Notes: a model not told the origin generated them from the sequence alone. DNA of 64,000 nt from Bacteroidota bacterium (GCA_027484125.1 JAIXUI010000009.1:39738-103737); one strand, 5' to 3'. Positions 34,778 to 39,720 are shown, counted from the stretch's first letter. Program-made: numbers and translations.

Positions 34778-35995
34778 ATGAGTTCTAAAAAAGAAAACTG
34801 GCTTCTTCTTACCCTCGCCCTTTTACAATTTACCAACATCGTTGACTTCATGATCATCATGCCCTTAGGGAAGATGCTCATGCGTACACTACAGATTAAT
34901 ACCCAAGAATTCGGACTTATTGTTTCGAGTTACACTTTTTCGGCAGGCATTTCTGGATTTTTAGCCATGTTTTATATAGACTGGTTCGATAGGAAGGCAG
35001 TGCTAAGAAACATTTACACCGGATTTTTAATCGGTACCCTATTATGTGGACTTGCCAACAACTATGAAATGTTGCTTGCTGCTCGCATACTTACAGGGGC
35101 ATTTGGTGGCGTGCTGGGCGCATTAAGTTTGTCGATTGTAAGCGATGTAATTCCTTTAGAGCGGAGGGCATCCGCAATGGGTAAGGTGATGGCAGCTTTT
35201 TCAGCAGCATCGGTGCTTGGCGTTCCGATGGGTATTTTTCTGGCCAATTACTGGGACTGGCACTTTCCATTTTTCTTTCTTGCCGCTTTAGGGCTTCCGG
35301 TTTGGATTTTAATTGTGAAAAATATCCCCAATCTTACTGGTCACTTAACCGAACGAAAAAATAAACCCCTTCAAACACTGCGAGGAATATTTGAGGTAAG
35401 GAATCATTGGAAAGCGCTTTTCTTTGGATTTATCCTCATGTTAGGACATTTTTCTATTATTCCATTTATCAGTCCTTACATGGTTTCCAATGTGGGATTT
35501 TCTGAAAAACAGCTCACTTGGATTTACTTCGTTGGTGGACTGCTCACTTTGTTCACCTCGCCTTTAGTAGGCAAATTAGCGGATAAGTATGGCCGTTTTC
35601 AGATGTATGCGGTGTTTGCGGCGATATGTTGTTTGCCTATTTTCTTGATTACTAATCTTGGCCCAACGCCCATTTGGCAAGCATTAATCGTGAGTGGACT
35701 CTTTTTTATTGCAACCGGAGGGAGAATGGTGCCCATGCAGGCCATGGTTTCAGCTGCGGTAAATCCGAAAATTAGGGGAAGTTTTATGACCTTGAACGCT
35801 TCTGTACAGCAGTTAACAGCAGGCTTAGCCTCACTTATCGCCAGTCAGGTGATATCAGAAAAAGTAGTAGATGGGCATGTTTATCTTGTTCATTATGATT
35901 GGGTTGGCTATGGAGCTATAATCTTTAGCTTATTGGGAATTGGAGTAGCAAGTCAATTGAAAACAGTTCCTCAAACTATCGTGCAAGTAGAATAA
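34778..35995 (+). CDS. MFS transporter (drug/sugar efflux-like)
   Basis: 405-residue inner-membrane carrier with 12 hydrophobic spans. Features of DHA1-type exporters: F-T-N-I-V-D-F-M-I-I-M-P-L-G in span 1, Y-I-D-W-F-D-R-K between spans 2 and 3, R-I-L-T-G-A-F-G-G-V-L-G in span 4, and G-K-L-A-D-K-Y-G-R-F between spans 8 and 9. Substrate unknown. Only 53 bp separate it from divergent pulA, and a terminator lies 4 bp after its stop. The pulA neighbourhood hints at a sugar, but this is weak. Confidence 0.83.
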   Translation: MSSKKENWLLLTLALLQFTNIVDFMIIMPLGKMLMRTLQINTQEFGLIVSSYTFSAGISGFLAMFYIDWFDRKAVLRNIYTGFLIGTLLCGLANNYEMLLAARILTGAFGGVLGALSLSIVSDVIPLERRASAMGKVMAAFSAASVLGVPMGIFLANYWDWHFPFFFLAALGLPVWILIVKNIPNLTGHLTERKNKPLQTLRGIFEVRNHWKALFFGFILMLGHFSIIPFISPYMVSNVGFSEKQLTWIYFVGGLLTLFTSPLVGKLADKYGRFQMYAVFAAICCLPIFLITNLGPTPIWQALIVSGLFFIATGGRMVPMQAMVSAAVNPKIRGSFMTLNASVQQLTAGLASLIASQVISEKVVDGHVYLVHYDWVGYGAIIFSLLGIGVASQLKTVPQTIVQVE

Positions 35996-36023: not shown

Positions 36024-36815
36024 TTAGTCGTTGGTAGTATTTCCTCGACTTATTTTTTTTACTAAGCTCCGGCCATTGGCTGAAACTACAAGGAACACCG
36101 TTCCCTTGATTCTCCTTCCTAAATCAATTGCATTGTTGAACAATCCGATGTAGCGAGTGTGAGATTGTGAATAAATTTCTTTTCCTTCTTGACTTAACAC
36201 TTTCACTACGAGGTTTACAGGTTCGAAAACTTCAAACGTAAGTTTCAGTTTGTTTTTCGAACTTGAGCCACTTACCATTAAGTCTTCTAGGTATTCTTCA
36301 GCATTCCCGGGTTTAACTCCAAGCTTATTCAGTTCTTCTTTGTCTGCATCAGTAACTTGAATGCTAAAGTTTCGGTTTCCATTCATCGCCCAACCGTGAT
36401 GGAATACCTTCATTTCAGGAAGGTCGAATTGAAATTCTTCTAAACTTCTTAAAGCTTTTGTAACCTCATCAGCGCTTTGATCTGGACCTAAAAACATGAT
36501 TTTTTTCTTTTTCTTAAGGCTTCCACCTTCTTCGTCACAATCTTGATTAAGGAATAATTCAATCATTTGATCACCTTGAACAACTTGCTCTGGTTGTTTT
36601 TTCTTCTTGGTGTAAAGCTTAACTGCTGCTTGAGCTTCATCTAGGTTATTGAAACTGGTATCAAGCACACTACTTAAACCATTTTCCTCATGAATAATAT
36701 TCATCTGGATTTTAGTTTCATTTCGAGGACTTACTCTTGAGTCAGAAGATTGCCCGAAAGCCAGCACCGGTGCAAACATGCACCCGACCGCCATCAATTT
36801 TAGACATGTACGCAT
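36024..36815 (-). CDS. Secreted protein with T9SS-like C-terminal tail, unknown function
   Basis: 263 residues with a Sec signal peptide (L-K-L-M-A-V-G-C-M-F-A-P-V-L-A-F-G). The middle is charged and includes two lysine runs, D-E-A-Q-A-A-V-K-L-Y and D-A-D-K-E-E-L-N-K-L-G. The last 65 residues (V-V-K-V-L-S-Q-E-G-K-E-I, then N-N-A-I-D-L-G-R-R-I-K-G-T-V-F-L-V-V) follow the pattern of a type IX secretion sorting domain, though the usual terminal K-K-I-V-K is replaced by V-K-K-I-S-R-G-N. No enzyme motif is visible. Divergent from a histidine kinase gene with a direct-repeat operator between them, so it is a likely target of that system. Confidence 0.65.
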   Translation of the reverse strand: MRTCLKLMAVGCMFAPVLAFGQSSDSRVSPRNETKIQMNIIHEENGLSSVLDTSFNNLDEAQAAVKLYTKKKKQPEQVVQGDQMIELFLNQDCDEEGGSLKKKKKIMFLGPDQSADEVTKALRSLEEFQFDLPEMKVFHHGWAMNGNRNFSIQVTDADKEELNKLGVKPGNAEEYLEDLMVSGSSSKNKLKLTFEVFEPVNLVVKVLSQEGKEIYSQSHTRYIGLFNNAIDLGRRIKGTVFLVVSANGRSLVKKISRGNTTND

Positions 36816-36834
36816 TGTTTTGATTTTGTAAAGC

Positions 36835-36842
36835 CAAAACTA
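36835..36842 (-). promoter_or_regulatory. -7 element TAGTTTTG for the secreted-protein gene
   Basis: Minus-strand TAGTTTTG matches TAnnTTTG exactly, 19 nt before the ATG at 36815. No -33 TTTG is visible at a usable distance. Instead the GTTAA repeats begin 22 bp upstream, as expected for an activator-dependent promoter. Confidence 0.55.
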
Positions 36843-36864
36843 CCGTAGCATTGAAAATCAGAGA

Positions 36865-36902
36865 GTTAACGGTCGGTTAAAGGGCGTTAACGAAAGGTTA
36901 AT
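36865..36902. promoter_or_regulatory. Tandem operator: two GTTAAC-N5-GTTAA boxes, 21 bp apart
   Basis: GTTAA occurs four times in one direction, at 36865, 36876, 36886 and 36897 (steps of 11, 10 and 11 bp, one helical turn each). They group as GTTAAC-ggtcg-GTTAA and GTTAAC-gaaag-GTTAA, exactly 21 bp apart. Direct repeats with this spacing are how OmpR-family regulators bind (compare the CpxR GTAAA-N5-GTAAA box). They sit between a secreted-protein gene and an OmpR-type regulator operon, so autoregulation by the encoded regulator is the natural reading. Arrangement seen; binding inferred. Confidence 0.7.
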
Positions 36903-36928
36903 CGGTTTTCTAACATTTCATTTATGAA

Positions 36929-36936
36929 TAATTTTG
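36929..36936 (+). promoter_or_regulatory. -7 element TAATTTTG for the histidine kinase gene
   Basis: Exact TAnnTTTG match, 4 nt before the ATG at 36941, predicting transcription starting at or next to the start codon. The GTTAA array ends 26 bp upstream, where an activator would contact the polymerase; no TTTG -33 is present. Confidence 0.5.
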
Positions 36937-36940
36937 AAGC

Positions 36941-38998
36941 ATGAACAAAAGGCTGTTGTACGGAATTATCACGCTGTTGGCCATAACCATGGTTGGAATA
37001 TTGGGATTCCAGTATTTCTGGTTGAAGAATACCATCAGGTTGGAAACAGAATCCTTTGACAGAAAAGTTTATGACATCGCACAGCGGGTGAATCAGCAAT
37101 TGGAGGAAAAAGAAGCCCGTGATATGGTGAAAAAGGATATAACCAGGCTTATTGCTACTTCTGAGCCCGGTAGCCATTCAATTCCGGTTGAAGCTAAACC
37201 CTTGACTCCAAAAAAACTTGTGCCTAAAAGCGAGGTTCAGCCAGCTCCAAAAAACACTGCGACGGTTAGCCAAGAAAAGCCTTCCAGGCCAGGCAAAAAG
37301 GTTGAAATTATGTTGCCTTTTTCCGGTACAAACGCTCAAAAGCATATCAATCAAGCTGACTACTTTACGTTTCCGGAATTTCAAGATTTTGAGAGTTTTG
37401 AAAGACTAAAAGAATTTGAGCCATTATTGCAACTTGGTTTGGCTAATCAATTTGAAATCAATCAGTTATTAAGAGATTTTTTTCCTGAAATTATGATTGA
37501 AGACAGTCAAATTGTGGTTATGAAGAACAAAGGCAACTGGCCTCAAATGATACCATCGCCTCTTTATAAACGGCTTGATTCTTTGAAGACAAAAAGAATT
37601 AAAGCAGTCAACCAACAGGTAGCAAGATTTTTAAAGCCTGATTTTATTCAAGATTGCACAGCGCGTTGCGTTGATCAGGAAGTTAAAGGCCAGGAACAAT
37701 CTGGCTACAGAATGACTTTTGCAGGTCCTGTTAAAGCTCCTCAACCGAGTAAATCAACTAATCTAGTTGTTGCTGATAAAGCGGAAGAGCAAGAGGAGTT
37801 TGTTCAGAGAAAACTGAGCATAAAACAGTCAGAAATTGAAAGAAAAGCAGCTGAAAAAGCAATGATTAAAGCCAAAACGCTTGATCTCGAAATGAAAAAA
37901 GTGATGGTCAATTATTTCTCAGGTCAAAAAAACATCAAGGAAAGAATTGATTCAGCTGAAATTCAAATGATGTTGGCAAGCGAACTAAAAAAGTCAGGGA
38001 TTAATTTGCCGTTCGATTTTGCGGTTTTTCGCGGACATCAACCTGTTTACAGAACTGCCGGCCTGCTGAATAAAGGCCAAACAGAGAAAGAATTTACTGC
38101 TAAAGTTTACACTGCGGGCTTGTTTACCAATGATGTGGTAGATTCTAAACTCAGGCTTTCATTGGTATTTCCAGGGAAAGATGAATACATCATACAAAAT
38201 TTGTATGCCTTGGTTTTAGTTTCTGGAGCCTTAAGCTTGCTAATATTGACAGCATTTTTTGCTTCAGCTTGGGCTTTATTACGTCAAAAGAAAGTGTCTG
38301 ACATCAAGTCTGATTTCATTAACAACATGACGCATGAGTTTAAAACACCCATTGCTACCATTTCACTCGCAACAGATGCGCTGAAAAATCCGAAAGTTTA
38401 TCAAGATCAAAATCGAATACAGTACTATTCCGGCATTATCCGCGAAGAAAATAAACGCATGAATAAGCAAGTGGAAAAAGTCTTGCAAATGGCTCAATTA
38501 GAGCGAAAAGATTTGCAATTGAATAAAGAGCCGCTTTGCATTCACGATGTGATCCAACAAGCAGTTTCCATGCTAAGTCTTCAAGTAGAAGACCGTGGCG
38601 GAAAAATAGAAACCTACTTTTCAGCGGAAGACTGCGTTACCTCAGCTGATGAGGTTCATATGGCCAACGTATTTTTTAATTTAATAGATAATGCAAATAA
38701 ATACACCGATACCCAACCTGAGATAAAGCTCTATACGTATAACCATCAAGACCGAATTATCATTGAAGTTACGGACAACGGAAAAGGCATGAAACCAGAA
38801 ACCATTCGCCACTGTTTCGATAAATTCTACAGGGAATCTACCGGAAACAGGCATGATGTAAAAGGCTTCGGACTTGGACTTAGTTATGTCAAAGAAATTG
38901 TTGACATGCACTTGGGTGATATTAAGGTTAAAAGTGAACTCAACAAAGGAACAACGTTCGAAATAAGTCTACCGTTATGCAAAGCAAACAAGAATTAA
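36941..38998 (+). CDS. Sensor histidine kinase with enlarged periplasmic domain
   Basis: 685 residues. Spans at about 6-28 and 422-446 enclose an unusually large sensor. Its first part is Pro/Lys-rich (about 80-125), the middle has F-T-F-P-E-F-Q-D-F-E-S-F, then D-C-T-A-R-C and an alanine/lysine-rich helix (about 280-330) likely to be coiled-coil. The segment before span 2 (L-K-K-S-G-I-N-L-P-F-D-F-A-V, L-S-L-V-F-P-G-K-D-E-Y-I) is the common Bacteroidota sensor module. The DHp box is N-N-M-T-H-E-F-K-T-P-I-A-T (H465), followed by N box F-F-N-L-I-D-N-A-N-K-Y, G1 D-N-G-K-G-M and G2 G-F-G-L-G-L-S-Y-V. RprX-like. The stop overlaps the regulator ATG as TAATG. Confidence 0.9.
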   Translation: MNKRLLYGIITLLAITMVGILGFQYFWLKNTIRLETESFDRKVYDIAQRVNQQLEEKEARDMVKKDITRLIATSEPGSHSIPVEAKPLTPKKLVPKSEVQPAPKNTATVSQEKPSRPGKKVEIMLPFSGTNAQKHINQADYFTFPEFQDFESFERLKEFEPLLQLGLANQFEINQLLRDFFPEIMIEDSQIVVMKNKGNWPQMIPSPLYKRLDSLKTKRIKAVNQQVARFLKPDFIQDCTARCVDQEVKGQEQSGYRMTFAGPVKAPQPSKSTNLVVADKAEEQEEFVQRKLSIKQSEIERKAAEKAMIKAKTLDLEMKKVMVNYFSGQKNIKERIDSAEIQMMLASELKKSGINLPFDFAVFRGHQPVYRTAGLLNKGQTEKEFTAKVYTAGLFTNDVVDSKLRLSLVFPGKDEYIIQNLYALVLVSGALSLLILTAFFASAWALLRQKKVSDIKSDFINNMTHEFKTPIATISLATDALKNPKVYQDQNRIQYYSGIIREENKRMNKQVEKVLQMAQLERKDLQLNKEPLCIHDVIQQAVSMLSLQVEDRGGKIETYFSAEDCVTSADEVHMANVFFNLIDNANKYTDTQPEIKLYTYNHQDRIIIEVTDNGKGMKPETIRHCFDKFYRESTGNRHDVKGFGLGLSYVKEIVDMHLGDIKVKSELNKGTTFEISLPLCKANKN

Positions 38999-39720
38999 TG
39001 GAAACCGAGGTGCGCAGTAAAGTGCTGTCTGTACTCTTGGTAGAGGATGATCAGAATTTTGGTCGGGTCCTCAGAGACTACCTCGAATTGAATGACTTTA
39101 CCGTTACTCTTGCTCGTGATGGCATTGAAGGCCTCGCTTGGTTTCGGAAAGCTTCATTCGATTTGTGCTTGTTAGATGTGATGATGCCTAAGCTTGATGG
39201 TTTTGCATTAGCTAGAGAAATTCGAAAGGTAAATCCTGAAATGCCGATGCTTTTCCTGACTGCAAAAAATCAGAAAGCGGATATTTTGGAGGGTTTCCGC
39301 CTCGGAGCTGACGATTACATCACCAAACCGTTCGACTCGGAAGTGTTGCTGGCTAAAGTTAGAGCGATTGTTAATCGTAAACTATCGCTTGAAAGCCAGG
39401 AAGAAAATGAGTTTGTAGTGGGTAAGTTGAAGTTCAATTTCAAACTGCGAACCATTGTGAACACTGAAAATGGAAATGCACAGAAGTTGTCTCCCAAAGA
39501 AGCGGAACTGCTGAAAATGCTTTGTCAGCATAAAAATGACGTGCTAACTAGAGAAAAAGCACTCAAAACCATCTGGAAAGAGGACTCTTATTTTACCGCG
39601 AGAAGTATGGATGTTTTCATAGTTAAACTTAGAAAGTATTTAAAAGAGGACCCAAGCTTAACCATCCAAAACCTTCACCGTCATGGCTTTCAACTTAGTG
39701 AGCATGCGGTAGTCGCTTAA
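38998..39720 (+). CDS. OmpR-family response regulator
   Basis: 240 residues from the ATG at 38998, which shares its A with the kinase stop (TAATG). An upstream in-frame ATG at 38977 would add seven residues inside the kinase gene; the shorter form gives a normal N-terminus (M-E-T-E-V-R-S-K-V-L-S-V-L-L-V-E-D-D). Receiver: acidic pair E-D-D, phospho-acceptor D60 in L-C-L-L-D-V-M-M-P-K, T in F-L-T-A-K, and K in I-T-K-P-F. The C-terminal winged helix has L-S-P-K-E-A-E-L-L, L-T-R-E-K-A-L and V-F-I-V-K-L-R-K-Y-L. RprY-like partner of the kinase, and the probable binder of the GTTAA repeats. Confidence 0.93.
   Translation: METEVRSKVLSVLLVEDDQNFGRVLRDYLELNDFTVTLARDGIEGLAWFRKASFDLCLLDVMMPKLDGFALAREIRKVNPEMPMLFLTAKNQKADILEGFRLGADDYITKPFDSEVLLAKVRAIVNRKLSLESQEENEFVVGKLKFNFKLRTIVNTENGNAQKLSPKEAELLKMLCQHKNDVLTREKALKTIWKEDSYFTARSMDVFIVKLRKYLKEDPSLTIQNLHRHGFQLSEHAVVA

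Follow-up and report, generated by a model that had tools for sequence, protein, structure and literature searches.

A four-site GTTAA array recurs at the same spacing ahead of RprXY-like sensor genes in many Bacteroidota families and suggests a Cpx-like envelope-stress circuit

A short array of four direct GTTAA sites lies between a secreted-protein gene and a divergent RprXY-like two-component operon, and recurs at the same spacing ahead of related sensor genes in many Bacteroidota families, suggesting a Cpx-like envelope-stress circuit. Very probably the array is the site of the adjacent RprY-like regulator, and would act as a bidirectional autoregulatory activator operator within such a circuit. 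The features concerned are collected in Table 1, with positions in the window, by which we mean the whole 64-kb stretch of DNA that was analysed; the genome from which it comes is called the window genome.

Table 1. Features of the module, in window coordinates
Feature	Position	Strand	Basis or remark
Divergent secreted protein, 263 aa	36024..36815	-	ORF; homologues at other array loci
-7 box TAGTTTTG, secreted-protein promoter	36835..36842	-	Sequence; 22 nt from array
Putative regulator operator, four-site GTTAA array	36865..36901	+	Sequence; conserved class-wide
GTTAA sites of the array	36865-36869, 36876-36880, 36886-36890, 36897-36901	+	Steps 11, 10, 11
-7 box TAATTTTG, kinase promoter	36929..36936	+	Sequence; 27 nt past array, 4 nt ahead of ATG
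RprX-like sensor histidine kinase, 685 aa, HisKA + HATPase_c	36941..38998	+	ORF, profile matches
RprY-like OmpR-family response regulator, 247 aa, recognition region YFTARSMDVFIVKLRK	38977..39720	+	ORF, profile matches

The array and its two promoters

The array occupies an intergenic gap (36816-36940) with the secreted-protein gene on one side and the RprXY-like kinase/regulator operon on the other. An initial annotation of this region had described a gap of 125 bp holding four GTTAA sites at steps of 11, 10 and 11 bp, arranged as two exact GTTAAC-N5-GTTAA boxes 21 bp apart, all of which proved correct to the base. No further exact GTTAAC-N5-GTTAA occurs in the 64-kb window beyond these two boxes, and with one mismatch allowed 4 were observed in the window vs 1.45 expected; a single box is weak evidence and not significant alone. 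The four-site array is not due to chance. It arose in none of 300 simulated Markov windows of 64 kb, and at up to three mismatches it is found in the window genome only here (both strands) and at a paralogous kinase/regulator promoter on contig C148, the reversed control giving 3 matches under the same settings. A large regulon in the window genome was rejected, as that search returned nothing other than these two promoters. Pairs of the form GTTAA-N6-GTTAA are rarer there than their reversed control (12 vs 18), so that a two-site regulon, a further candidate that we rejected, is unreadable from the sequence of this genome.

The paralogous locus on C148 (L073, genome G000) is a second RprY-like pair, with a short kinase and a divergent secreted DUF1573 protein, an assignment that was confirmed, and its promoter array follows the 11/10/11 pattern with two mismatches. 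Cross-talk between this pair and that of the window is possible. An MFS exporter gene also adjoins the module (34778-35995), scoring 300 bits with the myxochelin exporter model MxcK, below the cut-off of 525.

Inspection of the two window promoters bore out the annotated combination of an exact -7 box with no -33 box, TTG being absent at -33 spacing from both; the distance of the array from each promoter, annotated as about 25 bp, was roughly right, the actual values being 27 nt on the kinase side and 22 nt on the secreted-protein side. This geometry is widely shared. Of 63 array promoters, 44 have a TAnnTTTG box on the kinase side, 26-29 nt past the array, and 46 have one on the opposite strand, 21-23 nt ahead of the array (exactly 22 nt in 42). 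The TA of the divergent box is kept in all 17 exact arrays that come with a kinase. At -33 spacing, TTG occurs in 5/44 of the kinase-side and 6/46 of the divergent-side promoters, approximately the chance level. The kinase ATG follows the -7 box by 4 nt in the window and by 2-7 nt in most relatives with an exact kinase-side box, from which a leaderless kinase-regulator mRNA, conserved across families, is predicted. At four loci (L199, L061, L074, L277) the divergent -7 box is kept at 21-23 nt, although the adjoining 450 nt contain no divergent protein gene of at least 90 aa; the box may drive a small RNA or a short gene at these loci.

Conservation across the class and the regulator tree

A search of related genomes for the array beside orthologues of the regulator, which the initial annotation had named as one means of refuting its proposal, instead found the array conserved class-wide, with fixed -7 spacing on both sides. 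Among 395 genomes of the class, the 11/10/11 array with at most one mismatch was found 47 times (24 exact), vs 5 for the reversed pattern. We examined 41 arrays: 30 sit immediately ahead of an RprX-like kinase gene, and in 29 of these cases an RprY-like regulator comes after the kinase. At one more array locus (L204) the kinase start is called inside the array. Most array-bearing genomes have a single exact copy, beside the kinase/regulator pair. The sites are fixed while the spacers between them vary freely, in arrays that had been selected as exact.

Selection by protein gave a similar picture. We assembled 107 RprY-like pairs, including that of the window, keeping pairs in which the regulator carries RSMDV, or a sequence close to it, as its recognition motif; all but the window's were picked without regard to the array. 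Paired sites, defined as GTTAA at 10- or 11-bp steps upstream of the pair, are present in 76/107, vs 1/107 for the reversed pattern, in one of 17 other OmpR-type two-component loci, and in 12 of 1076 other genes, several of these 12 being regulator or kinase genes in their own right. Of the 107 pairs, 35 reached a four-site score of at least 18/20, vs 0 reversed and 1/17 of the negative loci, meaning that a strong four-site array is kept in only about one third of the protein-chosen pairs; many retain two sites. Fisher values for these comparisons are extreme, but related genomes are not independent, so we put weight on the effect sizes and controls. Some array-bearing pairs have no adjoining secreted-protein gene.

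By its domains the window regulator is an OmpR/PhoB-type response regulator (receiver plus winged helix), with Pfam Response_reg at 106 bits and Trans_reg_C at 60.8 bits, both above cut-off, and its gene overlaps that of the kinase by 22 nt. The annotation of an RprXY-like pair stands for an RprX-like kinase and an RprY-like regulator, but RprY proper was rejected: the regulator scores 276 bits with the RprY equivalog model (NCBIfam NF051850), short of the 370 required, and groups in a sister clade. The sensor part of the kinase is covered by a partial model only, its best structural match being the LuxQ periplasmic domain at an unusably weak E of 0.5.

In a FastTree tree of 145 regulators, the window regulator belongs to a clade of 69 (support 99) in which strong arrays are nearly all 11/10/11, whereas a separate group of about 60, including proteins above the RprY cut-off (L266-L268, L056), has strong arrays that are mostly 11/10/10. 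A basal set, which includes the paralogue from the window genome, combines short kinases (~420 aa) with arrays beside divergent DUF1573 genes. Array spacing follows the clade of the adjacent regulator, and the operator thus probably predates the split of these groups.

In the genome_contigs set (L083-L162), approximately half of the best-matching RprY-like regulators have neither an adjoining kinase gene nor a GTTAA array, as with the orphan RprY of P. gingivalis, and no array was found near the regulator gene for the orphan RprY-like regulators of that set, many of them from Chitinophagaceae. Four flavobacterial loci (L385, L378, L396, L382) have three-site GTTAA arrays with 10-bp steps ahead of other kinase genes (462-487 aa), and three of the four have a divergent secreted protein resembling the GLPGLI family by eye.

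The secreted protein and the degP promoters

The window protein comprises a signal peptide, an N-terminal '...HEENGLSSVLDTSF' motif, a low-confidence middle and a degenerate C-terminal domain similar to the T9SS type A tail. It is homologous to divergent secreted proteins encoded at other array loci, the nearest of them matching at phmmer E 1.8e-11 to 8.5e-11. The family is characterised by a signal peptide, an 'NG...DTTF'-type N-terminal motif, a charged middle of low conservation and, for most members, a T9SS tail. The annotation of a T9SS-tailed protein holds for the family and less well for the window protein itself: a tail model matches 24 of 25 members scanned, the window's included, at E up to 1 (best E 1.8e-15), and relatives pass the Pfam tail model (34 vs a cut-off of 27 bits), while the window tail is degenerate and scores 12.3 bits with Por_Secre_tail, below the cut-off of 23. 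The tail is absent from L201, L202 and L059, which retain the N-terminal part. The window genome encodes the T9SS sortase PorU (1324 bits vs a cut-off of 420). In structure prediction only the C-terminal domain, about residues 150-259, is confident, and a Foldseek search with the model returned nothing below E 1e-3, a DUF3244 protein (4g5a) being among the weak matches. The window protein sequence has no LTxxQ motif, as found in CpxP, and no Pfam family over cut-off.

This secreted-protein family diverges rapidly and accompanies the array. The annotated link between operator and secreted-protein gene gains support from loci at which that gene is apart from the kinase and the array goes with it: in genome G002 the secreted-protein gene and the kinase gene are separated by a hybrid-kinase gene, with a separate array retained at each of the two, and in G235 a family member apart from the kinase still has an exact array.

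Exact arrays also occur in two genomes ahead of a DegP/HtrA-type protease with Trypsin_2 and PDZ domains. In the one bacterial family concerned, each of the 13 genomes searched has a GTTAA pair no more than 200 nt upstream of its degP gene, with 0 reversed, and class-wide such pairs are present at 9/30 degP promoters, plus 4 on the other strand, again with 0 reversed. The degP gene of the window genome was rejected as a target, its promoter being without a 10/11-bp site pair, so that a degP-linked stress regulon is suggested for relatives rather than for this organism.

A proposed activator circuit and its alternatives

Direct GTTAA sites at 10-11 bp steps would bring consecutive regulator subunits onto one face of the helix, which is how OmpR-family dimers bind. 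From its conservation, the array is most likely the regulator's own binding site, which supports the annotated proposal of an operator for the adjacent OmpR-family regulator, in an activator position with respect to both the operon and the secreted protein. In the model, which is inferred as regards DNA binding, promoter activation, the stress that is sensed and what the secreted protein does, phosphorylated regulator dimers would bind head-to-tail on the four direct sites, along one face of the DNA, and activate the two divergent promoters that have a -7 box and no -33 box. The leaderless kinase-regulator operon would be positively autoregulated, and the divergent secreted protein would be the output of the circuit and the likeliest feedback or protective component, in an envelope-stress circuit working like CpxP-CpxRA. 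The envelope-stress reading is suggested by the layout and by the same sites at degP/HtrA promoters. As neither promoter has a -33 box, the simplest reading would be that a single array activates both, activation being preferred to repression from the position of the array.

The likeness to Cpx is one of architecture. In Enterobacteria and Pseudomonas the CpxRA/CpxP system also has an OmpR-family regulator, direct repeats and a secreted-protein promoter adjoining the regulator gene; as there, the boxes found here are common to a secreted-protein gene and a two-component operon, and in relatives occur also at degP, a known Cpx target. The CpxR site at cpxP consists of GTAAA-N4-8-GTAAA direct repeats (PMC5063474), whereas the array here has four sites rather than two and another half-site, and the secreted protein beside it is no relative of CpxP (LTxxQ is absent) and in most members has a T9SS tail. 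Membership of Cpx itself was rejected, with the CpxR model at 111.6 bits (cut-off 341), the CpxA model at 93.6 (cut-off 486) and no CpxP motif.

The Bacteroides fragilis RprXY system and the RprY of Porphyromonas gingivalis, an orphan with no linked kinase, belong to the same regulator superfamily as the window regulator. Published work connects RprY with oxidative and sodium stress (PMC3646045). Among known operators, the nearest in sequence and site number are probably the PhoP/WalR boxes of Bacillus subtilis, those of PhoP being TTAACA-like, at about 11-bp steps and often in four sites; that system and its promoters are unrelated, and here the array serves two divergent promoters in fixed placement. 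PorXY-SigP, which controls type IX secretion, is a two-component route tied to T9SS in Bacteroidota, and no GTTAA arrays are described for it in the literature found; PorX is not known to be an OmpR-type DNA-binding regulator.

A bolder and unlikely version is a Bacteroidota-specific secretion-surveillance or envelope-stress circuit, in which the divergent T9SS-tailed protein would be a dedicated reporter, exported if the type IX route works and otherwise accumulating in the periplasm to act on the kinase, closing a CpxP-like loop via the GTTAA operator with degP as effector. Also unlikely is a bidirectional repressor site, at which the regulator, perhaps unphosphorylated, would hold both promoters down; the edges of the array come close to the -33 region, a location used for repression by some OmpR-family regulators, yet the lack of a -33 box at both promoters in nearly all relatives is expected of activator-dependent promoters, and spacings of 22 and 27 nt leave the -7 box free. 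It is more doubtful still that the array is bound by another regulator, either a paralogous RprY-like protein or an unrelated factor, with the adjacent pair merely one target: the second array-bearing locus in the window genome, the recognition motif common to regulators of this family (making cross-binding plausible) and the exact arrays far from kinase genes would all fit, but the spacing of an array agrees with the clade of the regulator beside it and the single exact copy of most array genomes is beside the pair. Finally, phased A/T-rich repeats upstream of promoters can be UP-like elements, but an element of promoter architecture (curvature or alpha-subunit contact) that is no regulator site is scarcely credible for sites that accompany RprY-like pairs and degP yet occur in ~1% of other genes, are strictly directional (reversed controls 0-1) and are fixed between freely varying spacers in arrays selected as exact.

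The initial annotation knew of no description of this operator, and the literature searched, which mostly lacked subscription papers, contains no published RprY-type binding site nor one for its relatives; the P. gingivalis RprY papers in it report neither a consensus or motif nor a direct repeat, and a CpxRA-like envelope-stress pathway worked out in Bacteroidota did not come up in it either. What appears to be new is the unusual shared, spacing-locked layout of a putative OmpR-type autoregulatory operator, together with a new family of partner proteins. An operator present across the class at set distances from its promoters offers a handle by which the regulons of a large regulator family can be read from sequence alone. 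So far it leads to degP and to a secreted-protein family that diverges rapidly, and laboratory strains can now serve to test what the stress signal is and what the T9SS-tailed partner does.
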